The notes under the pieces: generated by a model | Databases searched by the model: none | Told to the model about the DNA's origin: nothing | Seen by the model: only the letters and a program-made list of their open reading frames with translations | Made by a program: the position numbers and the translations under genes | NCBI GenBank assembly: GCA_020846875.1 | Contig: JADLDB010000059.1 | Span: forward strand, 62,001 to 126,000 | Source of the DNA: Myxococcales bacterium | GTDB lineage: Bacteria; Myxococcota; Myxococcia; Myxococcales; Myxococcaceae | DNA length: 64,000 bases | Direction: 5' to 3' | Shown: piece by piece, positions 12,533 to 27,551 of the stretch | How positions within the stretch are numbered: position 1 is the stretch's first letter | How the letters are laid out: every line of letters starts with the position of its first letter

Positions 12533-14332
12533 ATGCCGGGCCTCAAGCCGCTCCTCGTCAGCCTGGCCCTCGCGGGCGTGGTGGCGGGGTGCGGCTCGTC
12601 GGGCCCCAAGCCGCTGCCCTTCGGCTCGTCCTGCGTCCCGGGGGACACCGTCTTCGAGTGCGCCTCGGGGCTGTGCGTGGCGCTCGACACGGCGTCGGGC
12701 TTCTGCACCGACGGCTGCACCATCACCGACGACTGCCCCGCCGACTTCGCCTGCGCGGGCGCGGGCCGCTATGGGCGGATCTGCCAGCCCCTCACCGGCT
12801 GCAAGACCGAGACGGACTGCCCCGCCGGCCACGTCTGCAACGCCGAGACGGGCAACTGCTACATCCAGGTGAGCCGCACCCTCTGCTCGCCCTGTCAGGA
12901 TACGGCGCAGTGCCCGGCCGGCGGCGCGTGCTTCGAGGCGTTGGGCTCCGGCGAGAAGTTCTGCACCGCGGCCTGCGGCGCGTCGGACGACTGCCCCACC
13001 GGCTACGACTGCCGGGAAATCCCCGCCGGGGCGATGGGCGCGCTGGTGAAGCAGTGCGTGCCCAGCACCGACACCTGCAGCAACGGGCGCGGCATCTGCA
13101 CGAGCTGCCGGGGCGACGCGGAGTGCGGCGGCCCCTTCGATCTCTGCGTACGCAACGTGGTGTCTGGCGAGCAGTTCTGTGGCCGCGACTGCAACCCGCA
13201 GAAGAACCTCTGCCCCACGCCGGGGTGCGATCCGGTGAAGCTGGACTCGGCGCAGAACCCCGACTGCCCGGCCGGCTTCTCCTGCACCAACCTCGGCAAG
13301 TCCGACGATCCGAACGTGGTGGGGCCCTACCAGTGCGTGCCCAATTCCAACACCTGCGCGGGCTACTGCGACTCGAGCGATGCGCTCGGCCAGGTGTCGC
13401 AGTGCGGGCTGGGCAAGGTGTGCGTGAGCAACGCCTGCGTGCCCGCGGTGGACGGGCGCATGTGCTCGCCGTGCACCGACAACGACGACTGCCGGCGCGG
13501 CGGCTTCTCCGAGAACCGCTGCATCGTCAACAACTGCCCTGACTGCCCGTACAAGGGGGAAGCCTTCTGCTCCACCCCCTGCGCGGACGACGCCGCCTGC
13601 ATCCGCAGCTTCGGGGCGGGCTTCGTCTGCAAGCCGGTGGACGATCCGTCGGGGGTGGAGCGCAGCTACTGCATGCCCCAGCGCGGCACCTGCCAGACGG
13701 GCCTCAAGCGGCTGGGGGAGGACTGCACCGCCAACGGCGCCGCGGACTGCGTGACGGGCACCTGCCTGGTGGCCGGCGTCACCAGCTTCTGCAGCGGCCC
13801 GTGCGCCCAGGACAGCCAGTGCGGCGACGCCCACTACCGCTGCTGCGAGACGGCGGCCCAGGGCGGCTACGACTGCAGCGCGGACAAGCGCAACCCCGAC
13901 GGTCCAAAGTCTGGCATGGGCGTGTGCGCGCCCATCGGCGGGCTGTTCGGCGACGACTGCTCTCCGGGGCTGGCGCCCTGTCAGAGCGGCACCTGCCTCG
14001 ATCTCGGCACCGCGCGGCTGTGCTCGGTGACGTGCGCCGGCGGGGCGGGGTGCCCGTCAGGCTTCACCTGCCGCAAGGCGCAGCTTCCGGATCTGAGCGG
14101 CGAGGCCGACGTGTGCTTCCCCAACGGTGGAGGGACTCCGGGCGCCGACTGCGACTTCGGCCCCGCCGCCTGCCAGAGCGGCCTGTGCATTCGCAAGGAC
14201 TCGGGGCCGATCTGCACCACCCCGTGCATGGCGGACGCGGAATGCCCGGAGAACTGGATCTGTCAGCTCCTGCGCACGGTGAACGAGCAGTCGGTGCAGG
14301 CCTGCCTGCCCCCGGCGCTGCAGGACGGTTAG
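12533..14332 (+). CDS. Large cysteine-rich surface lipoprotein
   Basis: About 599 residues with lipobox LALAGVVAGC, then some 60 cysteines arranged as repeated modules of the type C-x(4-6)-C-P-x-G-x-x-C, for example TDDCPADFACAGAG, ETDCPAGHVCNAETGNC and SDDCPTGYDCREIP. Such modules are common in myxobacterial secreted proteins and should be heavily disulphide-bonded, so an extracytoplasmic surface location is expected. I know of no enzymatic motif in it. The start MPGLKPLL at 12533 lies 20 bases after rplC; an in-frame extension back into rplC is rejected. It lies directly upstream of the vWA lipoprotein and the outer-membrane barrel genes, so an accessory role in that envelope complex is possible but unproven. 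Confidence 0.82.
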   Translation: MPGLKPLLVSLALAGVVAGCGSSGPKPLPFGSSCVPGDTVFECASGLCVALDTASGFCTDGCTITDDCPADFACAGAGRYGRICQPLTGCKTETDCPAGHVCNAETGNCYIQVSRTLCSPCQDTAQCPAGGACFEALGSGEKFCTAACGASDDCPTGYDCREIPAGAMGALVKQCVPSTDTCSNGRGICTSCRGDAECGGPFDLCVRNVVSGEQFCGRDCNPQKNLCPTPGCDPVKLDSAQNPDCPAGFSCTNLGKSDDPNVVGPYQCVPNSNTCAGYCDSSDALGQVSQCGLGKVCVSNACVPAVDGRMCSPCTDNDDCRRGGFSENRCIVNNCPDCPYKGEAFCSTPCADDAACIRSFGAGFVCKPVDDPSGVERSYCMPQRGTCQTGLKRLGEDCTANGAADCVTGTCLVAGVTSFCSGPCAQDSQCGDAHYRCCETAAQGGYDCSADKRNPDGPKSGMGVCAPIGGLFGDDCSPGLAPCQSGTCLDLGTARLCSVTCAGGAGCPSGFTCRKAQLPDLSGEADVCFPNGGGTPGADCDFGPAACQSGLCIRKDSGPICTTPCMADAECPENWICQLLRTVNEQSVQACLPPALQDG

Positions 14333-14411
14333 GGCCCCAGAAAACTCGAAAAAGCCTGTTCAGACCGGTGGTTGAACGTGCTATCTCGCCGCACCCTCAA
14401 GGCGTGATTCG

Positions 14412-15857
14412 ATGAAGCGGGCTCTGCGTGTCACTTGCGTGCTGTGGGTCGCCGCCGTGGCGATGGCCGGGTGCCAGGATCGCACGCGCACCCGCCGCGT
14501 CCTCGAGCCCTTCACCGTGGTGCCCGGCACGCCCACTGTCGACACCAAAGCACCCGAGGTGCAGACGGACGGCACGCAGGAGACGGGTGACTTCGGCGTC
14601 AACGTACCGCGGCAGTGCGACGTCTTCCGGCAGTTGCCGGTGCGGCAGGTGGACATCCTCTGGGTGGTGGACTCGTCGGGCAGCATGGCGCCCAAGCAGG
14701 CGCGGCTGGCGGCCAACTTCCAGGGCTTCATCAACCAGCTGGTCAACGCCAACCCGCCCATCGACTTCCACATCGCGGTGGTGAGCACCGACACCGACGA
14801 CGCCGCGGGCCGCGGGAAGCTCAAGGCCTGGACGATCAGCGGCTTCACCGAGGACTTCATCGCCTGCGCGCCCACCATGCAGGGCAGCGTCACCTGCAAC
14901 ACCGGCCCGGACGTGATGAGCGCGGTGCAGGCCTTCGGGCAGATGTCTCAGGTGGGGATCGCCGGCAGCGCGCAGGAGCGCGGGCTGTACTCGGCGTACC
15001 TGGCGCTCACCAACACGCTCAACAACTCCACCCCCGCGGTGACCCGCTTCGTGCGACCCGAGGCCTCGCTGTACGTGGTCGTGGTGTCCGACGAGGACGA
15101 CTCGTCCTGCACGCCGCTCACCCGACAGGCGGTGTGCACCGCAGATCCCGGCTGCCGCTGCTCGCCCGACACGGCGCTGGCCGGCGCCGGCGCGTGGGGC
15201 TCGACGGAGTACTTCACCCGCTTCCTCGAGACCTTCAAGGGCTACGGCAACGAGGACTCGGTGGCGCTGGCGGCCATCGTCGCCACCAGCGACGACGCGG
15301 GCGTGCCTTCCCAGTTCGGAGATCCCAGCCCCCACGTCGGCTGCTGCCGCTCTCTGTCCGGCACCCCGTGCCCGGCTGGGGGCGCCAACGACGGCGGCTA
15401 CGAGGTGGGCTACTTCGGCGGCCGCTACGTGCAGGTCGCGGCGGCCACCGGCGGGGTGACGGTGTCGATCTGCCAGGACGACTTCTCCCAGGCGCTGGCG
15501 GCGCTGGGCTACGCGGCGTCGGGCCTGCGCCAGGAGTTCCGCTTGAGCCGCGGCCCGGATCTCAAGCCCGACGGGGGCGTGGCCGACGGGCTGGCGGCGT
15601 ACGTGGCGAAGTCCACCGCCGCCAACTGCATGGTGGACGGCAACTGCCCCATGGGCCAGGTGTGCCGGGGGCAGCGCTGCGCGGATCGCGTGGCCGTCAG
15701 CCTCAGTCCGCAGGCTGCGGGCGCCTCCTACGTGCGCTGCGACACCGCCGGCCTGCGCAACATGGTCCGCTTCGATGGGACGGCCGTGCCCGAGCCGCTC
15801 AGCACCATCGAGGTCTGTTACGACGTCCTCGCCAGCTTCCCCACCACCTGTCCTTGA
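14412..15857 (+). CDS. vWA-domain surface lipoprotein
   Basis: A 481-residue lipoprotein (lipobox AAVAMAGC, Cys20) with a von Willebrand factor A domain from about residue 78. The metal-ion-dependent adhesion site is intact as DILWVVDSSGSM. Further conserved parts are FHIAVVSTDTDD and YVVVVSDEDDSSC. Several cysteine pairs (CRCSPD, GCCRSLSGTPC, CMVDGNCPMGQVCRGQRC) suggest disulphide-stabilised surface exposure. The next gene, an outer-membrane barrel, starts 35 bases downstream, so the two are probably co-transcribed. In Myxococcus the vWA lipoprotein CglB is the gliding adhesin that works with the Glt outer-membrane complex. This protein is not obviously its orthologue but could play a similar part. 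Confidence 0.88.
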   Translation: MKRALRVTCVLWVAAVAMAGCQDRTRTRRVLEPFTVVPGTPTVDTKAPEVQTDGTQETGDFGVNVPRQCDVFRQLPVRQVDILWVVDSSGSMAPKQARLAANFQGFINQLVNANPPIDFHIAVVSTDTDDAAGRGKLKAWTISGFTEDFIACAPTMQGSVTCNTGPDVMSAVQAFGQMSQVGIAGSAQERGLYSAYLALTNTLNNSTPAVTRFVRPEASLYVVVVSDEDDSSCTPLTRQAVCTADPGCRCSPDTALAGAGAWGSTEYFTRFLETFKGYGNEDSVALAAIVATSDDAGVPSQFGDPSPHVGCCRSLSGTPCPAGGANDGGYEVGYFGGRYVQVAAATGGVTVSICQDDFSQALAALGYAASGLRQEFRLSRGPDLKPDGGVADGLAAYVAKSTAANCMVDGNCPMGQVCRGQRCADRVAVSLSPQAAGASYVRCDTAGLRNMVRFDGTAVPEPLSTIEVCYDVLASFPTTCP

Positions 15858-15892
15858 AGCCCAGTCCGTCTGCCCGAGGTGCACGCGCTGCC

Positions 15893-16735
15893 ATGAACCG
15901 GAAAACTCTGAAGATCGTCGGCTGTCTCGCGGTGCTTCTCACCGCCGGCAGCGCGTTCGCCGATGAGGGCGAGCTGGTGGAGAAGGTCGCCGTCCGCAAC
16001 CGCCTCTACACGGTGGCCGGACGCTGGGAGGTGGGCGCGAACTTCGGCCTATCGTTGCTGAGTCGCCTGACCGATCACTACAACCTGAATGTCTCAGGGG
16101 CCTACAACTTCACTGACTGGTTGGGACTGGAGCTTCGCGTCGGCTACGCAATCTCGAACTACACGTCGCTCGCTCGACGGGTTCAGGAGGACTTCTACTC
16201 TTCCAACAGTCAGTCGAAGGCGAGCGACCTCTCCGATACCTGGCTGATGAAGTTCAACGCCATCGCCGGCCTCAGATTCCAGCCGATCTACGGCAAGATC
16301 AACGTCATGGCGGAGTTGCCCATCCACTTTCAGCTCTACGGCTGGGTGGGCGGGGGAGCCGCGATGTTCAGCAGGGAGTCCCTCGTGATCTGTCCGGGCG
16401 GGCTGGTGCAGGGAACCGGAGGAGTGAGGCCCATCGCGGCCGCGTGCACGGACTCGTTGTCGTACTACAACGAGGACAACTTCGGCCCGCTTGTGTCGCT
16501 TGCCCTCGGCTTCCGGTTTTTCATCCCCGGCGTCACGTCCTCGGGGACGGTCGTCGGCCAGCGGCACAGCATCAAGCTCGAGGTTCGGGACTGGTCCTTC
16601 CTGGATTCGTACTACGTGAACGTCGACCGCGCGCAATCGAGCCCAAACAACCCCACGGCGGGCGGCATGCAGTCGCCCACCGCCGGCATCACCAACCTGG
16701 TGATGATCGACATTGGCTACGCCTTCCTTTTCTGA
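15893..16735 (+). CDS. Outer-membrane beta-barrel, GltA/GltB (NfsA/NfsB)-like
   Basis: A 280-residue protein with signal peptide (MNRKTLKIVGCLAVLLTAGSAFA) and alternating amphipathic strands ending in the terminal aromatic IDIGYAFLF, the usual BAM-recognition end of a barrel. The strands (RWEVGANFGLSLLSRL, YNFTDWLGLELRVGYAI) fit a small myxobacterial barrel. Its place as the first of two barrels followed by a TPR protein matches gltB-gltA-gltC and nfsA-nfsB-nfsC. GC content of this gene is visibly lower than its neighbours (many AAC, TCG, TTT codons). The ATG at 15893 was chosen because the signal peptide starts there. Confidence 0.82.
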   Translation: MNRKTLKIVGCLAVLLTAGSAFADEGELVEKVAVRNRLYTVAGRWEVGANFGLSLLSRLTDHYNLNVSGAYNFTDWLGLELRVGYAISNYTSLARRVQEDFYSSNSQSKASDLSDTWLMKFNAIAGLRFQPIYGKINVMAELPIHFQLYGWVGGGAAMFSRESLVICPGGLVQGTGGVRPIAAACTDSLSYYNEDNFGPLVSLALGFRFFIPGVTSSGTVVGQRHSIKLEVRDWSFLDSYYVNVDRAQSSPNNPTAGGMQSPTAGITNLVMIDIGYAFLF

Positions 16736-16745
16736 TGACCATCGG

Positions 16746-17837
16746 ATGAACGCCATGCGAACATTGATCCTCGCAGCACTCCTCATGGTCGGTGCCGCCC
16801 AGGCGTCGACGCGTGCCGTGACGCCCGTGGTGATTGCACAGGGCGCCCCGGCAGTTGGGTCGCCCGCACCCGCCAGTGATGACGATGAAGACGAGGAGGG
16901 CCCAGCCAAGCCGAGCCCAGTGGAAGCTCCCAAACCAGAGCCGAAAACAGAGGGCGCAGTAGCGCCGACGGCTTCCTCCAAACCGGGTGACGAGCAGCGC
17001 CTGGTGTCGGGCGCACCCCTCTATAACCCCAACGTCGCGGTCCACATCGTGGAGCAGAAGCAGTTCTCGGACTCGGGCCGGCGTGAGCTGGTGCTCTTCC
17101 CGGTGGCGCTGCAGGTGAATGGCAAATTCACCCAGCACTTCGGCACCTTCGGCAGCTTCGTGTGGCACCTGCAGGAGAACTTCGGCCTTCAGATCACCGG
17201 CGGCTACAACTGGTACAACGCCGAGTCGGGCTTCAACGCCGAGCTGGTCGAGAAGGTTCGCGCCGAAGCCCAGGCCGCCACCTCGCTACTGTGGACCTGG
17301 GGGGTGATGGGCGGCGTGGAGGTGACGCCGCTGTACGCCAAGTTCGCCTTCTTCGAGGGCACCCTGGCCACCTTCTCCATCGTCATCAACGGCGGGGCCG
17401 GCGTCGGCGGCACCCGGCACCAGCTCAAGCCCGAGAGCGTGGCCTCCGACGGGGTGACCGTCAGCCCGGCCACCTACGGGGACACCGGGGCGCGCTTCAT
17501 GGGATCGCTGGGCGCGGGCTTCCGGCTGCAGCTGGGCCAGCGCTTCGCCTTCCGTCTGGAGGTCCGCGACGTCGTCTACACCGCCAAGGTGGACTCGGTG
17601 AACGGCTGCAACTCGATGGATCTGAAGGCCATGGACGACAAGATTCGCGGCGGCCAGCCAATCGAGTCGGCGGTGGTAGGCGGGAGCTGCAACGTGCAGA
17701 GCTTCGCCGGGACCGATCCCGACACCGGCTACAAGCGGAGCAACGACGTGCCGCTGGCGCTCAATCTGGTGCGGCTACCGTCGTCGGACGTCCTCAACAA
17801 CGTCGGCCTGTACATCGGGGCGTCGTTCCTCTTCTAA
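16746..17837 (+). CDS. Outer-membrane beta-barrel, GltA/GltB (NfsA/NfsB)-like
   Basis: A 363-residue protein with signal peptide (MRTLILAALLMVGAAQA), a Pro/Glu/Lys-rich acidic linker (DDDEDEEGPAKPSP) and a C-terminal barrel ending VGLYIGASFLF. Strands such as VWHLQENFGLQITGGYNWY and FRLQLGQRFAFRLEVRDVVY parallel those of the preceding barrel, so the pair is probably a tandem duplication that diverged. The acidic linker could cross the periplasm or bind partner proteins. The start at 16746 lies 10 bases after the previous stop; an upstream start would overlap that gene and precede the signal peptide. The next gene begins immediately after the stop. Confidence 0.82.
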   Translation: MNAMRTLILAALLMVGAAQASTRAVTPVVIAQGAPAVGSPAPASDDDEDEEGPAKPSPVEAPKPEPKTEGAVAPTASSKPGDEQRLVSGAPLYNPNVAVHIVEQKQFSDSGRRELVLFPVALQVNGKFTQHFGTFGSFVWHLQENFGLQITGGYNWYNAESGFNAELVEKVRAEAQAATSLLWTWGVMGGVEVTPLYAKFAFFEGTLATFSIVINGGAGVGGTRHQLKPESVASDGVTVSPATYGDTGARFMGSLGAGFRLQLGQRFAFRLEVRDVVYTAKVDSVNGCNSMDLKAMDDKIRGGQPIESAVVGGSCNVQSFAGTDPDTGYKRSNDVPLALNLVRLPSSDVLNNVGLYIGASFLF

Positions 17838-19385
17838 GTGAGTGAGAAGGCCATGATCCGCACGCTCGTCCTCAGCCTCGCCCTCGCCGCTTCCAGCGCC
17901 TTCGCGCAGGACCTGGCGAACTACAACAAGGGCCTCTCGGCCTACAACGCCAACGACTTCGGGGAGGCGGCGCGCCTCTTCTACGAGGTCACCAACACCA
18001 CCACCGACAATGATCTGCGCAACAAGGCCGAGTACTACCTGGCCTCCAGCTTCCAGCGGGCCAACCTGCCGTTCACCGCCTTCATCTACTTCACGCCGAT
18101 CGTGAAGCAGGGGCCGTCGCACCCGTACCACGCCAAGAGCGTGGAGGCGTTCATCGCCCTGCAGGAGACGCTCAACGACGACTACCTGATCCCGTCGATC
18201 CTCAACAACCTGTACGACAAGTACGCGGATACCTGGGCCACCCTGCCGCTGGAGGTCCTGGCGAGGATCAACTACCTCATCGGGCGCATCTCGCACCGCA
18301 AGGCGCTGCTGGAGGACGCCAAGCAGTTCCTCGAGGCGGTGCCCGACACCAGCCAGTTCTACGCGCGCGCGCAGTACCTGCTGGGCATCACCCTGGCCGA
18401 TCCCCGCTACCCAGCCGCCAGCGACGAGGTCCGCAAGGCCAACCTGGACGCGGCGCGGGTGATCTTCGAGAACGTGCTCAAGGTGAAGACCAAGCAGTTG
18501 GACTTCGCCGACACCCAGCACCTGGCGATGCTGGCCCTGGGCCGCACCAACTACAACGTGGGCGAGTACCAGAAGGCGGTCGACTGGTACGAGAAGATCC
18601 CCCGCTTCTCCAAGTACTGGGATCAGGCGCTCTTCGAGAACGGCTTCGCCCGCTTCCAGAATGACGATCTGGGCGGCGGCCTGGGATCGCTGCAGGGCCT
18701 CTACGCCCCGCAGTTCGCCGGCGCCTTCCAGCCCGAGTCGTGGATCCTCACCAGCACCATCTATTACTTCTCGTGCCTGTACGAAGAGTCCAAGGCCGCG
18801 CTGGTGGAGTACGAGAACCTCTACCTGCCGATGGCCGAGAAGCTGAAGCCCCTGGTGGAGGGCGAGTCGAGGGATCCGGCCAGCTACTTCCAGTTGGTCG
18901 AGCGGACGGAGAGCCAGGAGCTGCCGAAGGCGGTGCTCAACTGGGTGCGCTCCAACGAGCGCATGCTGGGCCTGTTCGGCATGCTCCACCAGATCGAGGT
19001 GGAGAAGGGCCTCATCGATCAGAACCAGGGGTGGAAGGCGGCCAAGCTGGCCAACGAGCTCGTCACGTACCTCGATCAGAACAAGGCGATGCTGGAGCAG
19101 GTCGCCGGCACCGTGTCCAGGGCCCGCCTCGTGGAGGCCTACCGGACCATCAAGGGCTTCGCGGATCAGGCCGAGATCATCCGCTTCGAGGTGGCCAAGG
19201 CCGAGAAGGAGCTGGCCGAGCAGAACGTCGACGCGGCGGGCGTGCTGAAGAAGCAGACCCTCTACCGCCCGAAGATGCCCGCGGAGAACTGGAATTACTG
19301 GAAGTTCCAGGGCGAGTTCTGGCGCGACGAGATCGGCTACTACCAGTACACCTTGAAGCGCGGCTGCCCGACGTCCTCGAACTGA
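17838..19385 (+). CDS. gltC: Periplasmic TPR protein, GltC/NfsC-like
   Basis: A 515-residue secreted protein (signal MIRTLVLSLALAASSAFA after a short N-tail) built of helical hairpins. Several read as tetratricopeptide repeats, for example YNKGLSAYNANDFGEAARLFYEV, AEYYLASSFQRANLPFTAFIYF and LGRTNYNVGEYQKAVDWYEKI (shortened here to key parts: N-K-G-L, A-E-Y-Y-L and N-V-G-E-Y). Position after two barrels and before two more TPR proteins matches gltC/nfsC, a periplasmic bridge in the gliding or spore-coat machinery. It starts on the base after the preceding stop. A strong intrinsic terminator follows 90 bases downstream, so this gene may end the first transcription unit. Confidence 0.78.
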   Translation: MSEKAMIRTLVLSLALAASSAFAQDLANYNKGLSAYNANDFGEAARLFYEVTNTTTDNDLRNKAEYYLASSFQRANLPFTAFIYFTPIVKQGPSHPYHAKSVEAFIALQETLNDDYLIPSILNNLYDKYADTWATLPLEVLARINYLIGRISHRKALLEDAKQFLEAVPDTSQFYARAQYLLGITLADPRYPAASDEVRKANLDAARVIFENVLKVKTKQLDFADTQHLAMLALGRTNYNVGEYQKAVDWYEKIPRFSKYWDQALFENGFARFQNDDLGGGLGSLQGLYAPQFAGAFQPESWILTSTIYYFSCLYEESKAALVEYENLYLPMAEKLKPLVEGESRDPASYFQLVERTESQELPKAVLNWVRSNERMLGLFGMLHQIEVEKGLIDQNQGWKAAKLANELVTYLDQNKAMLEQVAGTVSRARLVEAYRTIKGFADQAEIIRFEVAKAEKELAEQNVDAAGVLKKQTLYRPKMPAENWNYWKFQGEFWRDEIGYYQYTLKRGCPTSSN

Positions 19386-19475
19386 CCGGACGGGCCGGGT
19401 GTTGAAACCCACGAGCCCTCGAAAGCACTGGAAAAAGATGGCCCCCGCTGCGATCAGGGGGTCCCTTCCTTCATC

Positions 19476-19507
19476 CGGACCCGTGTTGTAGGGTCCGCGC
19501 GTTTTTT
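19476..19507 (+). terminator. Intrinsic terminator between gltC-like and gltD-like genes
   Basis: A perfect 7-bp stem CGGACCC / GGGTCCG with an 8-base loop, followed by CGCG and six consecutive T residues (19502-19507). This is the classic rho-independent form. It ends only 21 bases before the ATG of the next gene, so it may separate the cluster into two units or act as an attenuator for the downstream genes. Confidence 0.8.
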
Positions 19508-19527
19508 GTCCCACAGGAGCATTCAAG

Positions 19528-22500
19528 ATGACGCTGGCCCGAATCCTCTGCGCGCTGCCGTTGGTGTTGTCGCTGGTGGCCTTCGATGCATCGGCCCAGG
19601 GAAAGAAGGGCAGCAAGGCCCCGGCGAAGGCCGATCCGAAGGCCGCGAAGGCCGATCCCAAGGCCGCGGCGAAGAAGCCGGAGGAGCGCAAGGGCCCCGC
19701 CAAGCTGGACGCACGCAGCGGGGCGCCTCCCGCCGAGGCGGACGTGGAGCGCGAGGCGATCGCCGACAAGAAGCGCGACGATCAGATCGAGGCAGCGAAG
19801 AAGATCATCCCGAAGATCGAGGACGGCAACCCGCAGAAGGCCGACCTGCTCTTCCAGTTGTCCGAGCTGTACTGGGAGAAGTCGCGCTACCTGTACCGCA
19901 AGGAGATGCTGGGCTTCTTCAAGGCGCAGAAGGAAGCCGACGAGAAGAAGAACCGCGGCGAGAAGGTGGCCGAGCCCAAAGAAGAGCACCGCGAGTCCGA
20001 GCTCTACCGCTCGGAGACGATGCGCCTGTACGAGACGATCCTGCGCGAGTACCCCGCGTACGATCGCAAGGACGAGGTGCTCTTCAACCTCGCCTACAAC
20101 CTCTACGAGACGGGCAAGCGCGACGCGGCGGTGAAGCGCTACGAGGAGCTGCTCAAGGGCTACCCGGGCTCGAAGTTCGTCCCCGACACCTACGTGCAGC
20201 TCGGCAACCACTACTTCGAGGTGGCCAACGTCCTCGAGAAGGCGAAGACGTATTACGAGAAGGCGTTCGCCTCGAACAACCCGAAGATCAAGTCCTACGC
20301 GCTGTACAAGCTGGCCTGGTGTGACTTCAACGCCGGCGAGCACGAGAAGGCGCTCAAGAAGCTGCAGCAGACGGTGGAGTTCGCGGAGAAGCAGGGCAAG
20401 GACCGCGCCTTCACCGACCTGAAGAACGAAGCGCTGAACGACTCGATCCGCATGTTCACCGAGCTCAACCGGGCGGACGACGCGATCGCCTATTACACGG
20501 CGCACGCGGGCAAGAAGAAGAAGATCACCCTGATCGGCAAGCTGGCCTACGCGCTCCAGGACGCGGGCCACCACGACAACTCGATCAAGTCCTTCCGCTA
20601 CCTGCTCAACGACAACCCGCTGGCCGAGTCGGCGCCCGACTTCCAGCAGGCGATCATCAAGTCCTACGAGGGCATGCGGCAGCGCGAGAACGTGAAGGCC
20701 GAGGTGAAGAAGCTGGCCAAGCTGTACCGGCCGGGCTCCGAGTGGTGGAAGGCCAACGAGTCGAAGAAGGAAGTGCTGCGCAACGGCTTCAACGTCGCCG
20801 AGGAGGCGATGCGCACCACCGTCACCGAGTACCACCAGGAAGCGCAGAAGACCAAGCAGGTGGAGACGTACCGGCTGGCCCGCGACATCTACAAGGAGTA
20901 CGTGGACGGCTTCGCCACGTCCGACGACGAGGCCTTCGTCGCCGATCAGGCCTTCAACCTGAAGTTCTACTACGCCGAGATCCTCTGGGCGCTCGAGGAG
21001 TGGGAGCCCGCCGCGAAGCAGTACGACGGGGTGGTGGGCTTCAAGGTCCCCAACCGGCCCGAGGCGAAGGAGGCCTCCAACGAGAAGTACCGCCAGACGG
21101 CCGCGTACAACTCGATCCTCGCCTACGAGAAGCTGGTGAAGATCGAGCGCGGCGTGCTGCAGAAGTCGGAGCTCAAGGAAGGCGGCAAGGTCGAGGAGAC
21201 CAAGAAGAAGGGCTCGGTCGAGAAGCAGCAGAAGGTGACCAAGCGCTCGACCAAGGAGCTGGAAGAGAAGCCGCTCACCGACTTCGAGAAGCAGCTGGTC
21301 GCCGCCTGCGACAAGTACAACCAGATGTTCCCGAAGAACCCGGACGAGGTCGACGTGGCCTACCAGGCCGCGGTCATCTTCTACGACAAGAACCACTTCG
21401 TGGACGCGGCTCGCCGCTTCGGTGACATCGTGAACAAGTACCCGGAGGAGAAGCGGTCCACCGAGGCCGCCGACCTCTCCATGGCCGTCCTCGAGGAGAA
21501 GGAGGAGTGGCTGGAGCTGAACATCCTCGCGCGGCAGTTCAAGGCCAACGCCAAGCTGACCAAGCCCGGCACCGAGTTCGCCAAGCGCGTGGGCGGGATC
21601 GTCGAGGGCAGCCAGTACAAGTACATCGACGAGGTCGTCTACAAGAAGGAGAAGGATCCCAAGAAGGCGTCGCGCCTCTTCCTTGCCTTCGTCGAGGAGT
21701 TCCCCAAGTCGGAGAACGCCGATCGCGCGCTCACCTACTCGATGATCATCGCCCGCGAGGCCTACGAGCTGGACAAGGCCGCGCAGATCGGTGAGCGGCT
21801 GCTCAAGGAGTACCCGCAGTCGGTCTTCGACCTCAAGGTGAAGGCCTCGCTGGCCTACCTGTACGAGAAGATGGCCAACTTCGAGAAGTCCGCGAACATG
21901 TACGAGGAGTTCGTCGCCACCTACGACCTGGCCGCGGGTGAGAAGGGCGTCGGCTACGCCAACGTCAAGGATCTGCTCAGGAAGGAGGCCGAGGAGCGGG
22001 CCAAGGCCGCCAAGACGGCGAAGAAGGATCCCAAGGCCTCGGCGCCGGCGGTGATCTCCACCGTGGAGATGAAGAAGCTCACCGCGGACAAGCAGAAGGA
22101 GCGCGAGGCGCAGATCAAGGAGGCCGGCGAGCTGGTGGCCGACGCGCAGTACAACACCGGCTTCTGGTACGAGGGCGTGGGTCAGTTCGACAAGGCGATC
22201 GCCGCGTACAACCGCTACATCGCCCGCTTCAAGGACAAGAAGGACGTCCCCGACATCGCCTTCAACATCGGGTTGGTGCTGGAGAAGCAGAACAAGTACC
22301 TGGACGCGATCAAGTACTTCGATCAGTACCAGACGACGTACGCCAAGGACGCGCGGGTCGCGGACACCCGGCGCTTCGATCTGAAGTACCGGCAGTTCCT
22401 CTTGAACGGGAAGCTGAAGAACGCCGCCGAGCAGGATCGCCTGGCGAAGGACCTCACCGGCGCCTGGGCCAAGCTCAAGGAAGAGGAGAAGAAGAACGAC

Positions 22501-23163
22501 CGGGTGAAGCTGGCCTACGCCCACACGAAGTTCTATCTGCTCGAGCCGCAGTGGAACGCCTACCTGGCGCAGAAGTTCGACTACAAGAACTTCAACCGCT
22601 CGGCGATCGTCCAGTTCTCGAAGACGGACCGCCCGAAGAAGGAGAAGGCGCTGGCGGAGATCGAGAAGGTCTACACCGAGGTGCTGGGGATCGGGAACGC
22701 GGAGTACGGCATCGCGGCGCTGACCCGCATCGGCATGGCCTACGGTGACTTCGCCTCCAACATCGCCGGCATCCCCGATCCGGTGGGCTTCGACGAGGAT
22801 CAGACGGCCATGTTCCGCGGCGAACTCGAGAACCGCTACGTCTTCCCGGTCGAGGAGAAGGCGGTGGAGGCCTTCGACAAGGCGCTGGCCAAGTCCTACG
22901 AGCTGTCCGTCTACAACGAGTGGACGCTGCAGGCGCAGGACAAGCTGAACAAGTACAAGCCGGGCTTCTACGGCAAGCCGCGCGACGTCGCGTACCGGGG
23001 CGCCGAGTTCTTCGCCACCAGCGGCTTCGAGAAGGGCGTGCAGCTCCCGTCCGAGGTGGCCGCCGAGAAGCCCGCGGCGCCGCCCGACGCGCCTCCCGCC
23101 GGAGGCGCCACCAAGCCGCCGGAGTCGGCCGCGGCCCCCACTCCTGGCGCGGGGGCCCGCTAA
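19528..23163 (+). CDS. gltD: Large periplasmic TPR protein, GltD/NfsD-like
   Basis: A 1211-residue exported protein: signal peptide (LVLSLVAFDASAQ), a Lys/Ala/Pro-rich stretch to about residue 70, then a long helical array with many TPR-like hairpins (LFQLSELYWEKSRYLY, FNLAYNLYETGKRDAAVKRY, VQLGNHYFEVANVLEKAKTY). A charged coiled segment lies near 830-870. The C-terminus is proline/alanine rich. Size, TPR content and its place between the gltC-like and lipoprotein gltE-like genes match GltD (AgnA)/NfsD, thought to span part of the periplasm. ATG preceded by AGGAG. The stop overlaps a possible upstream start of the next gene (TAATG). Very lysine-rich, unlike its neighbours. Confidence 0.78.
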   Translation: MTLARILCALPLVLSLVAFDASAQGKKGSKAPAKADPKAAKADPKAAAKKPEERKGPAKLDARSGAPPAEADVEREAIADKKRDDQIEAAKKIIPKIEDGNPQKADLLFQLSELYWEKSRYLYRKEMLGFFKAQKEADEKKNRGEKVAEPKEEHRESELYRSETMRLYETILREYPAYDRKDEVLFNLAYNLYETGKRDAAVKRYEELLKGYPGSKFVPDTYVQLGNHYFEVANVLEKAKTYYEKAFASNNPKIKSYALYKLAWCDFNAGEHEKALKKLQQTVEFAEKQGKDRAFTDLKNEALNDSIRMFTELNRADDAIAYYTAHAGKKKKITLIGKLAYALQDAGHHDNSIKSFRYLLNDNPLAESAPDFQQAIIKSYEGMRQRENVKAEVKKLAKLYRPGSEWWKANESKKEVLRNGFNVAEEAMRTTVTEYHQEAQKTKQVETYRLARDIYKEYVDGFATSDDEAFVADQAFNLKFYYAEILWALEEWEPAAKQYDGVVGFKVPNRPEAKEASNEKYRQTAAYNSILAYEKLVKIERGVLQKSELKEGGKVEETKKKGSVEKQQKVTKRSTKELEEKPLTDFEKQLVAACDKYNQMFPKNPDEVDVAYQAAVIFYDKNHFVDAARRFGDIVNKYPEEKRSTEAADLSMAVLEEKEEWLELNILARQFKANAKLTKPGTEFAKRVGGIVEGSQYKYIDEVVYKKEKDPKKASRLFLAFVEEFPKSENADRALTYSMIIAREAYELDKAAQIGERLLKEYPQSVFDLKVKASLAYLYEKMANFEKSANMYEEFVATYDLAAGEKGVGYANVKDLLRKEAEERAKAAKTAKKDPKASAPAVISTVEMKKLTADKQKEREAQIKEAGELVADAQYNTGFWYEGVGQFDKAIAAYNRYIARFKDKKDVPDIAFNIGLVLEKQNKYLDAIKYFDQYQTTYAKDARVADTRRFDLKYRQFLLNGKLKNAAEQDRLAKDLTGAWAKLKEEEKKNDRVKLAYAHTKFYLLEPQWNAYLAQKFDYKNFNRSAIVQFSKTDRPKKEKALAEIEKVYTEVLGIGNAEYGIAALTRIGMAYGDFASNIAGIPDPVGFDEDQTAMFRGELENRYVFPVEEKAVEAFDKALAKSYELSVYNEWTLQAQDKLNKYKPGFYGKPRDVAYRGAEFFATSGFEKGVQLPSEVAAEKPAAPPDAPPAGGATKPPESAAAPTPGAGAR

Positions 23164-23192
23164 TGAGCCCCTCTCGAATCAAGGGAACGAGC

Positions 23193-24503
23193 ATGAAGTC
23201 CTTGCGCATCGCCGGGCTGTCCGTCGCCGCCGCCCTGTCCGCCTGCACCACGGTGCAGGAGGAGGTGAAGAAGGATCCGGTGCTCACCGCGCCGGTGAAG
23301 GCGAAGGAGAAGACGACGCAGGAGCTCTTCCAGGACGGCGTGGCGGCCTTCGACGCGGGCAAGTACGACGTGGCGAAGACGGCGTTCACGGCGGTGTCGA
23401 AGAAGGCGCCCCAGAGCGTCGGGCTGCAGTTCAACCTGGGCCTGGTCGCCGAGAAGCAGGGCCAACTGGCCGAGGCCGTGGGGTACTACGAGGCGGCCCA
23501 CAAGCTCGATCCGAAGCACAAGCCCACGCTGCTCAACCTGGGCCGCGCCTACCGCCTGCAGGATCGCTTCGACGACGCGATCGCCCTGTACGAGGCGGCG
23601 CTCAAGGATCCCGCCAACGAGTACGACGTCGAGCTCAACAACAACCTCGCCGTCGCCTACCGGCTGTCGAAGAAGTACGCCGAGGCCGAGGCCGCCGCCC
23701 GCAAGGTGCTGGCCCGCACCAAGGACAACCCCGACGCGTACAAGAACCTGGCGCTCATCTACTTCGACCAGGGGAACTTCCGGCTGGCCGAGTTCATCAG
23801 CGCCAACGCGAGGAAGCTCGATGACAAGGATCCCGGCGTCTACAACAACCTGGGGCTCATCTACCTGAAGATCGACGATCGCCGGACCGCGCTGGGCCAG
23901 TTCCAGAAGGCCGTCGAATTGAACAAGAACTTCGCGCCCGGGCTCTTCAACATCGGCGCGATGGCCCTGAGCTACCGCGACTACGAGGGCGCCGAGAAGG
24001 TGCTGGGCCGGGCCACCGAGCTCGATCCGACCTCCTACGAGGGCTTCCTCGCCTACGCCTGGGCGCTCGACGGCCAGAAGGGCCGGGATCCGAAGAAGGG
24101 CCTCAAGGCCGGCGAGACCTTCGAGCGCGTCCTGGCGATCAAGCCGGAGCAGCCCGACGCCATCTGCGGCGCCGCCTGGGCCTACGCGGCCGACAAGGGC
24201 GGCTGGGAGAGGGCGCTCAAGTTCTTCGAGACCTGCAAGGGCCTCAAGTCCACCACCGCGCAGGATCAGCAGCTGATCGACAACAAGGTGAAGGGCATCC
24301 TGGCCATGCAGAAGCAGCCGGCCGCCGCCCCGCAGCCCAAGCCGGAAGACAAGCCCAAGCCGGCCGCGGCCCCCGCCGGCGGCCCGTCGCTCCTCGACAA
24401 GGTGACCGACGACGCCGCCAAGGAGGAAGCCGCCCAGCCGCCCCCCGCCGGCGGTACCCCTCCGGCCCCGGCTCCGGCCCCCGCACCGCCCCCCGCGAAG
24501 TGA
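23193..24503 (+). CDS. gltE: TPR lipoprotein, GltE/AglT/NfsE-like
   Basis: A 436-residue lipoprotein with lipobox (SVAAALSAC, Cys18) and about eight tetratricopeptide repeats from residue 45 to 370, such as LQFNLGLVAEKQGQLAEAVG and VYNNLGLIYLKIDDRRTALG, then a Pro/Ala/Lys-rich tail. In Myxococcus AglT (GltE) is a TPR lipoprotein required for adventurous gliding, and NfsE is its spore-coat counterpart. Gene order here agrees with either. I prefer the ATG at 23193, preceded by AAGGGA and starting a normal lipoprotein signal, over the ATG at 23163 that overlaps the previous stop. Probably co-transcribed with the gltD-like gene. Confidence 0.82.
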   Translation: MKSLRIAGLSVAAALSACTTVQEEVKKDPVLTAPVKAKEKTTQELFQDGVAAFDAGKYDVAKTAFTAVSKKAPQSVGLQFNLGLVAEKQGQLAEAVGYYEAAHKLDPKHKPTLLNLGRAYRLQDRFDDAIALYEAALKDPANEYDVELNNNLAVAYRLSKKYAEAEAAARKVLARTKDNPDAYKNLALIYFDQGNFRLAEFISANARKLDDKDPGVYNNLGLIYLKIDDRRTALGQFQKAVELNKNFAPGLFNIGAMALSYRDYEGAEKVLGRATELDPTSYEGFLAYAWALDGQKGRDPKKGLKAGETFERVLAIKPEQPDAICGAAWAYAADKGGWERALKFFETCKGLKSTTAQDQQLIDNKVKGILAMQKQPAAAPQPKPEDKPKPAAAPAGGPSLLDKVTDDAAKEEAAQPPPAGGTPPAPAPAPAPPPAK

Positions 24504-24554
24504 GAGGGGCGTTGGCACAATGCGTCATGCCGCCCGAGCACCGCTGGGGTAGGG

Positions 24555-24583
24555 ATGACAACGACCTGCGGAATCCCTAGTAT
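24555..24583 (+). promoter_or_regulatory. Probable sigma-70-type promoter for the gltF-gltG pair
   Basis: ATGACA (24555-24560) and TAGTAT (24578-24583) are separated by exactly 17 bases, close to the housekeeping consensus at five and four positions. The predicted transcript would start near 24590, about 55 bases before the small gene's ATG, which has GGAGG upstream. It lies just after the gltE-like gene. Confidence 0.6.
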
Positions 24584-24645
24584 CCGCCGACTTTTCGGAA
24601 CCCCGCCATGCGACCCGGTGTCGGATGGCTCACGGAGGTAAGGAC

Positions 24646-24909
24646 ATGAAGCGCACGTTCGCTCTGCTGGCCCTGGTGGCCCTCGTCGCCGTCCCTGCGA
24701 TGGCCGAGGACAAGGTGATCAAGGAAGCCGACAAGACGGTCTTCCGCAAGAAGACGGTCATCGACTTCACCGACGTGGCCGTCGAAGGTGAGCTCACCAA
24801 GCCCGAAGGCAGCTACTCGGTGTCGAAGAAGAAGACGACGTTCAAGACGCTGATCAAGGTGCGCGACAACTTCAACCCCGAGCTGCAGAAGTCGGTCGAC
24901 AACCTGTAA
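24646..24909 (+). CDS. gltF: Small periplasmic protein, GltF/NfsF position
   Basis: An 87-residue secreted protein: signal peptide MKRTFALLALVALVAVPAMA, then a compact charged domain (VIDFTDVAVEGELTKPEGSY and FNPELQKSVDNL). The C-terminal half resembles short proteins I associate with FHA/TonB-like gliding genes in myxobacteria, where it lies just before gltG. I cannot give a biochemical role, and the name rests on gene order. ATG preceded by GGAGGTAAGG. It is followed 57 bases later by the FHA protein gene and preceded by a good promoter. Confidence 0.6.
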   Translation: MKRTFALLALVALVAVPAMAEDKVIKEADKTVFRKKTVIDFTDVAVEGELTKPEGSYSVSKKKTTFKTLIKVRDNFNPELQKSVDNL

Positions 24910-24966
24910 GCGCAGCGCCGGTTTCCGTCGTACCGCTTCACGTCTCGTGCATCACGAGGTTCCCAC

Positions 24967-26799
24967 ATGAAGAAGACGCCCATCACCCTGCAGATCACCA
25001 GCCCCGACGGCCAGGTGAGCGAGTCCACCAGCGAGCTTGAGAGCATCATCGTCGGCTCCGGCGCGGGCGCCGCGGTCAAGGTGGCCGATCCCAAGGTGTC
25101 CAACCTCCACTGCATGCTCAAGGTGGAGAAGGACGGCAACGTCACGGTCATCGACCTTGGCTCCGAGAGCGGCACCAAGGTGAAGGAGCAGTCGGTCAAG
25201 GATCCCACCATCGTCGCGTCCGGTGACGTGATCCTGATCGGCGAGTCCAAGGTGAAGGTCGTCTTCGGCAACGGCCACGCCAGGCTCGAGGAGAAGGGTG
25301 AGGCGAAGGCCGAGTCTTCCACCGAGAAGAAGAAGGACAAGGTCGTGCCCACGCCCCCCAAGGCGCTGGCCGGCACCGGGAAGAACGCCGCGGTGCTGTT
25401 CAACGAGCCGCTCCCCGCCGAGGCGATCCCCACCGAGACCGAGAAGGTGCTCCAGGTCGCGCTCCTCTGGGGCGACACCCTGATCAGCGTGCAGCACTTC
25501 GCCGACGGCGTGCCGGTCACCATCGGCGACGGCAGGGGGAACAAGTTCAACGTCTTCTCCCCCGGCGTGGGCGTCAGCTTCACTCTGGCGCAGGCGCGGG
25601 GCTCGACGGCGATCGTCAACGTGCCTTCCGTGGCCGGGTTGGTCGTCACCACCAAGTCGGACAGCCACAAGTCGAAGGAGCAGCTCAAGGGCGAAGGCAA
25701 GCTGCGCGCCGCCGAGGGCGGGGTGCGGGCCGACGCGGTGGAGCTGGCGCTGCACGATCGCGCGCAGATCAGCCTCGACAACGTCGCCTTCATCGTCCGC
25801 TACGTGCGTCCCTCCTCGGCGATCACGATGAACACGCTGCAGGAGCACGACTTCACCTTCTTCAAGATCACCTCGATCTGCCTGATGGCCTTCTTCGCCC
25901 TGGTGGCGGCGATGATCATCACCCCGCTCACCGGCGGCGGCGAGGGCGACGACATCTTCGCCAACCCGTCCAAGTACGTGAAGATGGTGGTCAAGCCGGA
26001 GAAGAAGCAGGAGATCAAGAAGTTCAAGGATCTCTCTGGCATCGCCGAGGGCGCCAAGGCCAAGGAGAAGGAAGGGAAGTTCGGCAAGCAGGACAAGGAC
26101 AAGAAGGAAGCCGACCCGTCGAAGAAGGGCGCGCCCGTCGTCGACGCCAACAAGCGCGAAGAGGACCGCAAGAAGGTGTCCAGCCTGATGGCCGGCATGT
26201 TCGGCGGAGGCGCGGCGTCCAACGTCTTCGGCCCCGGCGGGCTGGGCACCGGCATCAACAATGCGCTCGGCGGCCTGCAGGGCGGCGCGGGCGTGGGTGA
26301 CGCCCAGGGCGTAGGCGGGCTCGGGTCCCGCGGCTCCGGCGCCGGTGGTGGCGGCACGGGCCTGGGCCTCGGCGGGCTGGGCACCAAGGGCGGCGGGCGC
26401 GGCGCGGGCGGCTACGGCTCCATCGATCTCGGTGGCCGCGGCAAGGACTCGACGCGCGTCATCCCCGGCAAGACGACCGTGGTGGGCGGCCTGGACAAGG
26501 ACGTGATCATGAAGGTGATCAAGCGCCACCAGAACGAGATCAAGTTCTGCTACGAGCAGGAGCTGCAGAAGGATCCCAAGCTGGGCGGTAAGGTGGCCGT
26601 CGCGTGGACCATCGATCCCTCGGGCGGCGTGTCCGAGGCCAACGTGTCCGAGTCGTCGATCGGCAACGCCAACGTCGAGTCCTGCATCGTGCAGCGCATC
26701 CGGCGGTGGAAGTTCCCCGAGCCGGCTGGCGGAGGCATCGTCAACGTCACCTTCCCGTGGATCTTCAAGGCCGCGGGCGACGACAGCGCCGACGAGTAG
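24967..26799 (+). CDS. gltG: FHA domain plus TonB-like (AgmX/PglI C-terminal) protein, GltG/NfsG-like
   Basis: A 610-residue inner-membrane protein. The cytoplasmic N-terminus has a forkhead-associated fold (IIVGSGAGAAVKVADPKVSN, with LGSESGTKV at its end), though the canonical phosphothreonine-binding Arg and Ser are not clear. A second FHA-like stretch ends near 280. One membrane helix spans about 298-320 (ITSICLMAFFALVAAMIITP). A charged and then glycine-rich periplasmic linker leads to a TonB-C/AgmX-type domain at 506-605 (IKRHQNEIKFCYEQEL, SCIVQRIRRWKFPEP). This layout is that of GltG/NfsG, which links cytoplasmic and motor parts to the periplasmic complex. No AglRQS motor genes are in the window. 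Confidence 0.85.
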   Translation: MKKTPITLQITSPDGQVSESTSELESIIVGSGAGAAVKVADPKVSNLHCMLKVEKDGNVTVIDLGSESGTKVKEQSVKDPTIVASGDVILIGESKVKVVFGNGHARLEEKGEAKAESSTEKKKDKVVPTPPKALAGTGKNAAVLFNEPLPAEAIPTETEKVLQVALLWGDTLISVQHFADGVPVTIGDGRGNKFNVFSPGVGVSFTLAQARGSTAIVNVPSVAGLVVTTKSDSHKSKEQLKGEGKLRAAEGGVRADAVELALHDRAQISLDNVAFIVRYVRPSSAITMNTLQEHDFTFFKITSICLMAFFALVAAMIITPLTGGGEGDDIFANPSKYVKMVVKPEKKQEIKKFKDLSGIAEGAKAKEKEGKFGKQDKDKKEADPSKKGAPVVDANKREEDRKKVSSLMAGMFGGGAASNVFGPGGLGTGINNALGGLQGGAGVGDAQGVGGLGSRGSGAGGGGTGLGLGGLGTKGGGRGAGGYGSIDLGGRGKDSTRVIPGKTTVVGGLDKDVIMKVIKRHQNEIKFCYEQELQKDPKLGGKVAVAWTIDPSGGVSEANVSESSIGNANVESCIVQRIRRWKFPEPAGGGIVNVTFPWIFKAAGDDSADE

Positions 26800-26818
26800 G
26801 CGCCTTCACCTGAAGCAG

Positions 26819-26850
26819 CGGCGCGGGTGGCTCTCGAGGCCTCCGCGCCG
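26819..26850 (+). terminator. Stem-loop after the gltG-like gene
   Basis: CGGCGCGG pairs with CCGCGCCG (8 bp) around a 16-base loop that can itself fold. Only a TTT run follows (26856-26858), so it is a weak intrinsic terminator or an mRNA 3'-end structure. It precedes a promoter-like sequence for the next gene. Confidence 0.4.
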
Positions 26851-26904
26851 CTCGTGTTTCTGGCCTTCGCGCGATTTTTTCCGGCAGGCGCCTCGCTTTT
26901 CACC

Positions 26905-26932
26905 TTGCGCGACAGGTGCGGGCGGGTATGGT
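26905..26932 (+). promoter_or_regulatory. Possible promoter of the gltH-like gene
   Basis: TTGCGC (26905-26910) and TATGGT (26927-26932) are spaced by 16 bases, a reasonable sigma-70 arrangement for a high-GC deltaproteobacterium. The gene's GTG, with GGGAGGATTC before it, lies 26 bases downstream. Confidence 0.45.
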
Positions 26933-26957
26933 GCCGCGCCCGAAGTAGGGAGGATTC

Positions 26958-27551
26958 GTGCGGAAATTCGCCACGTTGCTGATCGCGCTGCTGCTCTCCA
27001 CCACCGCCGTCGCGGCGACCCCGTCGGAAGGTGTACCGCTCAAGGTCCGCCGCGGCTTCTTCACCGAAACCGACATCGGCGGGATCCTCACGGTCGGCGG
27101 CGACGACGGCTACTCCAACCTGCAGGTCTACCTGCAGCTTGGCCTCGGCTACCAGTTCGCCCTGAAGGAAGGGATGGGGATCATCCCGGTCGGCTTCCAC
27201 GTGGGCATCGGCGCCAACGCGGCGAACTGCCACGCGGGGAAGACGAACGGCGGCGTGTGCAACTCGTCGGACAACTTCACGATGACCTTCCTGTCCGTCT
27301 CCGCGGGCTACCTGCACCGCGTGGTGGAGCGGCTGTACCTGGGCGGGAAGATCATCGGCGGCTACACGCTGCTCGATCCCGAGCCGGTGGCGGGGGTGAA
27401 CGGCGGCGTCAATATCGGCGTGGCGGCCAGCCTGGAGTACGCCACCAACATGGATCACTTCTCCGTCGGCGTGGACGTGTCGTACCGGATCATCATCGGC
27501 CCGAACATCAACGTCCTCGCGTTCTTCCCGCGCGTTCAATACACGTTCTGA
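26958..27551 (+). CDS. gltH: Small outer-membrane beta-barrel, GltH/NfsH-like
   Basis: A 197-residue protein with a signal peptide (LLIALLLSTTAVAA) and about eight amphipathic strands ending in a terminal phenylalanine (FFPRVQYTF), typical of a small outer-membrane barrel. Strands include LQVYLQLGLGYQFAL and FLSVSAGYLHRVVERLYLGG. One cysteine pair (CHAGKTNGGVC) could form a surface-loop disulphide. It follows the gltG-like gene as gltH/nfsH do in Myxococcus. GTG start with GGGAGG Shine-Dalgarno. Probably transcribed from its own promoter. Family fit by position is stronger than by sequence. Confidence 0.72.
   Translation: MRKFATLLIALLLSTTAVAATPSEGVPLKVRRGFFTETDIGGILTVGGDDGYSNLQVYLQLGLGYQFALKEGMGIIPVGFHVGIGANAANCHAGKTNGGVCNSSDNFTMTFLSVSAGYLHRVVERLYLGGKIIGGYTLLDPEPVAGVNGGVNIGVAASLEYATNMDHFSVGVDVSYRIIIGPNINVLAFFPRVQYTF

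Follow-up and report, generated by a model that had tools for sequence, protein, structure and literature searches.

Comparison of gene order and protein sequence across relatives identifies a pair of lipoprotein genes, one Cys-rich and one with a vWA domain, as a conserved and co-inherited component of the Nfs locus of Myxococcota, whose products may physically contact the Nfs machine. This pair, located upstream of the nfsA-like gene and hereafter called the “head”, precedes a complete A-to-H gene set in the genome studied here. We consider it probable, though far from assured, that head and machine together form a surface apparatus that is driven by Agl, expressed in vegetative cells, and tipped with a MIDAS adhesin, and which was later adapted for building spore coats. 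No earlier report of this head was found in the open-access literature (subscription papers lay outside the search); a contiguous A-to-H cluster as such is not new, as the nfs genes of M. xanthus are already arranged in this way.

A ten-gene locus with two lipoproteins ahead of an A-to-H machine

The source genome (7.06 Mb, rated 100% complete) was examined starting from a 64-kb window, i.e., the whole stretch of DNA that was analysed (contig C59, positions 62001-126000). Ten genes with strong codon bias, all on the + strand, occupy positions 12533-27551 of this window in the order previously proposed from the sequence alone, and Pfam and NCBIfam family models name their parts (Table 1), which bears out the description of a contiguous A-to-H machine with two surface-type lipoproteins. 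The intergenic gaps within this run are 10 to 158 bp, which fits a single operon, and the stop codon of rplC lies 20 bp ahead of the first head gene. The nfsG-like protein combines an FHA domain with an AgmX/PglI tail (NF033768, over cut-off). The position of the nfsA-like barrel matches the order in the M. xanthus locus L196. Reading the translations of the 64-kb window revealed no aglRQS, GltI, or GltJ gene, as had been noted before, with AglRQS-like and GltI/J-like genes found instead on other contigs; at the locus itself, no counterpart of GltI, GltJ, or GltK was recognized.

Table 1. Genes of the headed nfs locus and its upstream neighbour (positions in the window)
Gene	Product	Position	Strand	Length (aa)	Family match or other feature
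rplC	Ribosomal protein L3	11838..12512	+	224	PF00297, sole L3 match in genome
Head gene 1	Cys-rich lipoprotein	12533..14332	+	599	77 Cys, lipobox VAGC
Head gene 2	vWA/MIDAS lipoprotein	14412..15857	+	481	
nfsA-like	Outer-membrane beta barrel	15893..16735	+	280	OMP_myx_plus TIGR04565, 2.2e-28, over cut-off
nfsB-like	Outer-membrane beta barrel	16746..17837	+	363	OMP_myx_plus TIGR04565, 5.6e-17, over cut-off
nfsC-like	GltC-like TPR protein	17853..19385	+	510	NF033756, 1.3e-66, 225.6 bits, below cut-off of 450
nfsD-like	TPR protein	19528..23163	+	1211	Nfs side of Nfs/Glt split in tree
nfsE-like	GltE-like TPR lipoprotein	23193..24503	+	436	NF033758, 9.5e-30
nfsF-like	GltF/CglF-like small periplasmic protein	24646..24909	+	87	NF033764, 6.3e-18
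nfsG-like	GltG-like inner-membrane protein	24967..26799	+	610	NF033760, 9.5e-96
nfsH-like	GltH/CglE-like small beta barrel	26958..27551	+	197	NF033755, 2.2e-47, over cut-off

The machine is Nfs rather than Glt

Judged by its sequences, the A-to-H set is the Nfs paralogue, orthologous to nfs, rather than Glt. The genes run without interruption from A through H as in M. xanthus, and rplC, which adjoins nfsA upstream in M. xanthus strain AM003 (L196), is also the upstream neighbour in most other Nfs loci whose contigs extend that far. The window NfsD shares 50-53% identity with its counterparts in Myxococcus, Corallococcus, and Archangium, vs 30-33% with GltD-type proteins of the same family. In both NfsD trees (82 and 44 rows; quick trees with SH-aLRT support and no bootstrap), the window protein falls inside the Nfs clade, with full SH-aLRT support (100) for the Nfs/Glt split, and does not group with gltD of gliding loci. 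The sequence-only reading had described the machine as Glt/Nfs-type, and the phylogeny, run for NfsD, refines this description by placing the protein within Nfs, with Glt apart.

Family-model scores draw the same distinction. The GltC model (NF033756) gives about 224-225.6 bits to the window protein and 207 bits to nfsC of a Myxococcus-type genome, vs 925-1084 bits to true GltC proteins, one of which is encoded on contig C150 of the source genome (948 bits). Scores at the locus stay below the equivalog cut-offs for GltC (225.6 vs 450 bits), GltE (103.9 vs 225), and GltG (321.8 vs 650), and the source genome carries GltD/E-like genes on C113, GltF/G-like genes on C101, and other AgmX/PglI-tail genes (GltI/J-like) on other contigs. 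Given this Nfs orthology and the true glt genes on other contigs, the earlier suggestion of an ancestral machine from which the split glt genes derive is set aside. A locus replacing missing Glt outer-membrane parts was also considered, and was rejected in view of the true GltC elsewhere in the genome. The G1+G2 grouping is already known from Anaeromyxobacter (PMC3169522).

Conservation and distribution of the head

Around the vWA orthologue, the order rplC, Cys-rich gene, vWA gene, nfsA and onwards was recovered in 19 loci as far as their contigs extend, with L072, L075, and L076 on short contigs that include only part of this order, and L073 without visible rplC. L074 was not counted because its vWA match is weak and nfs genes are missing from it. 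The loci named individually repeat the same rplC-head-nfsA order. Altogether, the head pair occupies the same place in more than 20 loci from families f1, f2, f3, f6, f7, f8, and f10 (codes for the families compared, f1 being the family of the window and f10 one from the same class), and this recurrence beside the cluster in relatives upholds the proposal that the lipoproteins belong to the machine. In f20, a family of the same phylum whose headed relatives are outside the NfsD tree, a weaker homologue pair lies beside nfsA-C with no rplC in view. The Cys-rich protein was detected in 34 of 195 Myxococcota genomes, and no copy of its gene was seen apart from nfs among the genomes inspected.

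Both head genes are jointly missing in Myxococcus, Corallococcus, Pyxidicoccus, Citreicoccus, Archangium, and Cystobacter, where rplC is directly followed by nfsA, and a search for the Cys-rich gene drew a blank throughout the headless f1 genomes listed. Absence of the head beside the cluster is confined to certain lineages, fruiting genera among these. The possibility of a diverged head in the wide rplC-nfsA gaps of L213, L228, and L143 was rejected, as an unrelated gene on the opposite strand fills these gaps. By reading, that gene encodes a GspE/PilB-type ATPase.

Within f1, headed and headless loci form two sister clades (SH-aLRT support of 99 and 98), while headed outgroups are found in f2, f3, f6, f8, and f10. 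At least six changes in head presence or absence are needed on the gene tree, which is best read, as the simplest scenario, as early presence of the head followed by repeated joint loss. This reading stops short of the root of all Nfs, because the three earliest-branching Nfs rows (L216, L219, and L224) lack a head. Pairwise distances, calculated between related and hence non-independent sequences, correlate at 0.93 between the vWA protein and NfsD, 0.94 between the Cys-rich protein and NfsD, and 0.97 between the two head proteins, with the machine parts themselves ranging from 0.87 to 0.96 (including 0.96 for GltC and 0.92-0.93 for the barrels) under the same non-independence. This co-variation argues against frequent transfer of the head between lineages, and is compatible with early events. 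Adjacency and co-inheritance are also compatible with co-regulation with rplC.

Features of the two head proteins

The Cys-rich lipoprotein has about 55 invariant cysteines and an invariant lipobox Cys20 across 11 sequences. It belongs to no Pfam or NCBIfam family, and its predicted structure (pLDDT 72, pTM 0.48) retrieved no match with an E-value below 0.001 in a fold search. A derivation from the Cys-rich part of CglD, split off as a separate protein, was not supported, given the lack of both an NCBIfam match and a blast match to CglD-like proteins.

In the vWA protein, the lipobox C21 is conserved in 31 of 31 sequences, as are S89 and S91 of the MIDAS site, with D87, and thus the full DxSxS motif, retained in 30/31; in the headed homologue L067, Gln replaces the MIDAS Asp. 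Among family models, it scores best with the vWA part of CglD (NF033765, 1.6e-14) and with a Bdellovibrio MIDAS adhesin family (1.9e-13). The predicted structure (pLDDT 76) aligns with an integrin I domain (Z 14.2, 187 residues, 3.1 Å), and residues 61-481 align with beta-integrin headpieces at a Z of about 13.5 and an rmsd of about 8 Å, a value which indicates that the relative placement of the domains is loose in this match. From its fold and MIDAS site, the vWA protein is thus a candidate integrin-like adhesin. The lipobox, disulphide-type cysteines, and kinship of the head proteins suggest a location at the cell surface.

The sequence-only reading had drawn an analogy between these lipoproteins and CglB. 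Identity between the vWA protein and CglB-like proteins (references which are themselves only putatively CglB) is 27-33%, and another protein encoded elsewhere in the source genome, which is CglB-like and shares 49% identity with a 437-aa G007 protein, indicates that the window protein is a separate paralogue. The analogy stands at the level of fold and domain, and does not extend to orthology. Similarly, CglD of M. xanthus resembles the window protein in its vWA part, but is one long protein, whereas the window encodes a separate 481-aa vWA protein with a Cys-rich neighbour lacking any CglD match. Bdellovibrio Bd0875 has in common with it a lipobox and a MIDAS-bearing vWA domain set into a small beta-rich one, and is a surface lipoprotein and adhesin whose MIDAS residues are required for prey to be invaded normally (PMC11003981). 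Unlike for the window protein, no Glt/Nfs machine is mentioned with Bd0875 in the text consulted, and the similarity is one of the vWA part (NCBIfam 50 bits vs a cut-off of 700).

Motor, exo genes, and expression

Seven MotA/ExbB genes were identified in the source genome. One operon, on contig C53, displays an ExbB-ExbD-ExbD arrangement as in aglR-Q-S, and its 160-aa ExbD includes Asp28 (an aglQ D28N mutant is paralysed; PMC3858216), which suggests that it encodes an AglRQS-type motor. All f1 genomes searched gave an AglQ-type match, as did 57 of 60 relatives. Work in M. xanthus has shown binding of AglR to NfsG and motor-driven movement of Nfs and the Exo polymer around the spore (PMC3858216).

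The Myxococcus-type genome G022 includes an OPX-led operon with the M. xanthus exo layout about 147 kb upstream of nfs, in which gene names were putatively assigned by position and content, and from which ExoG and ExoB were taken as references. No orthologue of either was found in the source genome, even though it is rated 100% complete, and two OPX export genes remain. With the tested exo genes missing, spore-coat assembly is an unlikely job for the machine in this genome. Both were also missing from 12 of the 15 headed f1 genomes (G000, G001, G002, G004, G005, G009, G010, G016, G018, G021, G023, G024, G025, G031, and G035), with only G009, G010, and G023 encoding both. Among the 15 headless f1 genomes with nfs (G003, G007, G008, G011, G012, G014, G015, G017, G022, G027, G028, G029, G030, G032, and G034), ExoG was found in all at ≥60% identity, and ExoB in all except G012. 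In this comparison, some headless calls are based on the lack of any head-protein match in the genome, rather than on a contig spanning rplC to nfsA, and some headed genomes are incomplete drafts. The corresponding Fisher test (1e-5) treats genomes as independent and is hence overstated: since exo loss in f1 is mostly that of one clade, this 15-vs-15 contrast represents few events, not 30. Weak ExoG-like matches in three headed genomes (27%) were taken as paralogues. Outside f1, an ExoG-like gene is present in the headed genomes G036, G037, G040, G042, and G056 and, along with G009, G010, and G023, these outgroup genomes indicate that head and exo are not mutually exclusive. The clean statement, in terms of gene content, is that one clade kept the machine and its head intact after exo loss. 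The suggestion of a spore-coat system with a new surface head was half right: it fits an Nfs locus, whereas the head is an old feature and the exo genes tested are missing here.

The developmental nfs promoter of M. xanthus is located within 323 bp upstream of nfsA, behind Mxan_3370 (PMC2875238), and in the M. xanthus locus examined this upstream neighbour is rplC. Headless fruiting genomes have an rplC-nfsA distance of about 280-390 bp, while the head of headed f1 members starts roughly 10-80 bp after rplC, based on starts picked by eye among candidate codons. The 20 bp in the window leave no room there for an M. xanthus-type developmental promoter, and this short spacing makes read-through from a growth gene, i.e., vegetative transcription from rplC, likely. 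The 20-bp spacing would also be compatible with a promoter located within rplC or within the head genes themselves.

Discussion

By analogy with the M. xanthus systems, the headed locus may combine adhesion, transport of the adhesin by a motor, surface display, and vegetative expression. In the inner membrane, NfsG would couple to the proton-driven AglRQS motor, and NfsC, D, E, and F would relay force through the periplasm to the NfsA, NfsB, and NfsH barrels. The vWA lipoprotein would be on the outer surface, with the Cys-rich lipoprotein probably keeping it in place or shielding it, and its MIDAS metal site could grip an outside ligand as CglB does for the Glt gliding machine (CglB function in gliding is reviewed in PMC13104615), and the motor would drag the head with its adhesin along the surface of the cell. 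The headed machine would be produced in growing cells by read-through from rplC. The fruiting genera, on this reading, have lost the head, their nfs genes are served by a separate developmental promoter, and the cargo that moves is the Exo spore-coat polymer.

The Nfs system of M. xanthus (PMC2875238, PMC3858216) is close to the window in A-to-H order, upstream rplC, NfsD identity, and clade, yet it is headless, is controlled by a separate developmental promoter in the gap between rplC and nfsA, and acts together with the exo locus, whereas the source genome has the head, no such gap, and neither exoB nor exoG. This orthology with a sporulation set, together with exoG-like genes in several headed outgroup genomes and the two remaining OPX genes, could point to an ordinary Nfs that assembles spore coats in this organism as well, moving a different polymer and using the lipoproteins as spore-surface or coat-anchoring proteins. 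We regard this explanation as unlikely given the absence of ExoB and ExoG orthologues from a genome rated complete, the abutment of the head on rplC, and the fact that the genera known to fruit are those that lost the head.

The Agl-Glt-CglB system of M. xanthus (PMC3169522, PMC4488436, PMC13104615) also resembles the headed locus, with homologous A-H parts, an Agl motor, and a vWA surface lipoprotein as the gripping part, and an AglQ-type gene is present in every f1 genome. On this basis, the head could be the CglB equivalent of an Nfs-based gliding apparatus adding to or replacing Glt. However, the window NfsD belongs to another clade than GltD-type proteins, no GltI, GltJ, or GltK counterpart accompanies it, and cglB is unlinked in M. 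xanthus while the window vWA gene is in the operon with an added Cys-rich partner. Gliding would already be served by the GltC over cut-off, the GltD/E/F/G-like and GltI/J-like proteins, and the CglB-like protein encoded elsewhere in the genome, and deletion of nfsA-H leaves gliding unaffected in M. xanthus (PMC2875238), although that Nfs is headless. Such a second gliding machine is thus quite improbable, and we give still less credence, very little in fact, to the lipoproteins being free-standing surface adhesins that share the rplC-nfs transcript without touching the machine. While these genomes commonly encode vWA lipoproteins (the source genome has 15 vWA-type matches) and head-machine contact is so far suggested by gene adjacency and co-inheritance, the two genes stay in the same order next to nfs across the class, their distances track those of the machine, and the Cys-rich gene is tied to nfs throughout the genomes examined.

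Whether gliding or sporulation came first in the Glt/Nfs family has been left unclear (PMC3169522). Retention of Nfs and its head in genomes without spore-coat polymer genes suggests that the machine was a surface-gripping conveyor first, and not a sporulation device. A wider view along these lines, which we consider a serious possibility although more doubtful than the Agl-driven, adhesin-headed surface machine itself, is that the ancestral Nfs of Myxococcota was a growth-phase, adhesin-bearing conveyor expressed from the rplC transcript. Spore-coat building in Myxococcus would then be a later re-use, with the head lost and a developmental promoter and exo cargo gained, and the headed machine would represent a second Agl-driven gripping system beside Glt-CglB. 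The locus provides a natural one-operon version of an A-H machine plus vWA adhesin, whereas the glt, agl, and cglB genes are scattered in M. xanthus, and the natural losses of the head offer a clean set for comparing headed and headless forms. Overall, a headed Nfs without exo would give a direct handle on the order of gliding and sporulation in this family, and predicts what the machine may have moved before there were spores.

Gene order around the nfs locus and variants in relatives

The rplC gene that precedes the nfs locus yields the only ribosomal protein L3 match in the whole source genome, with an MMPL/RND-type transporter gene as its upstream neighbour, and a detached rplC before nfs is also found in M. 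xanthus and in far relatives. Within one lineage of family f7 (L146 and L223), the NfsD reading frame extends to ~1700 aa and no separate NfsC was found at either locus, making an NfsC-NfsD fusion possible. The vWA gene of a headed locus (L067, genome G036) is a natural variant: it reads IQNSGSM, Gln replacing the MIDAS Asp, and its metal site is probably altered.

Two nfs loci occur in records with discordant names. One, in a record named 'Comamonas sp.' (L191, BNCN01000021.1), is Myxococcus-type and falls inside the Myxococcus clade; the other, in a 'Bdellovibrio sp.' MAG (L216, DYEF01000045.1), is nearly identical to one in a Deltaproteobacteria MAG. Both records are probably mislabelled or mis-binned.

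Also in the window, a putative PlsC-type acyltransferase carries a long N-terminal run of near-identical repeats (PHPGSPSVPFEASAHDASPDARPLGSAPR...).

Features in the window, the source genome (G000), a Myxococcus-type genome (G022) and family f7 loci
Feature	Position	Strand	Remark
MMPL/RND-type transporter	window 9086-11533
rplC (ribosomal protein L3)	window 11838-12512		no S10 operon visible around gene
PlsC-type acyltransferase	window 50234-52690	minus	assigned by reading
GltD/E-like genes (L148)	G000:C113:16600-21900
GltF/G-like and GltI/J-like genes (L077, L078)	G000:C101:9700-30000
Distant GltC-D-E-F-G type cluster, G4/G5 kind (L084)	G000:C109:82000-96000
Distant GltC-D-E-F-G type cluster, G4/G5 kind (L150)	G022:C1:2320000-2333000
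NfsD reading frame	L146:6118-11238
NfsD reading frame	L223:8711-13831

Related machines elsewhere in the genome

Whereas the glt G1 genes are contiguous in Myxococcus, this locus appears to be split up in the source genome, spread across contigs C113 and C101, even though the C113 portion does not lie at a contig end. For the G4/G5-kind system, an OPX polysaccharide-export gene adjoins the cluster in both G000 and G022, which hints at a polymer as its cargo.
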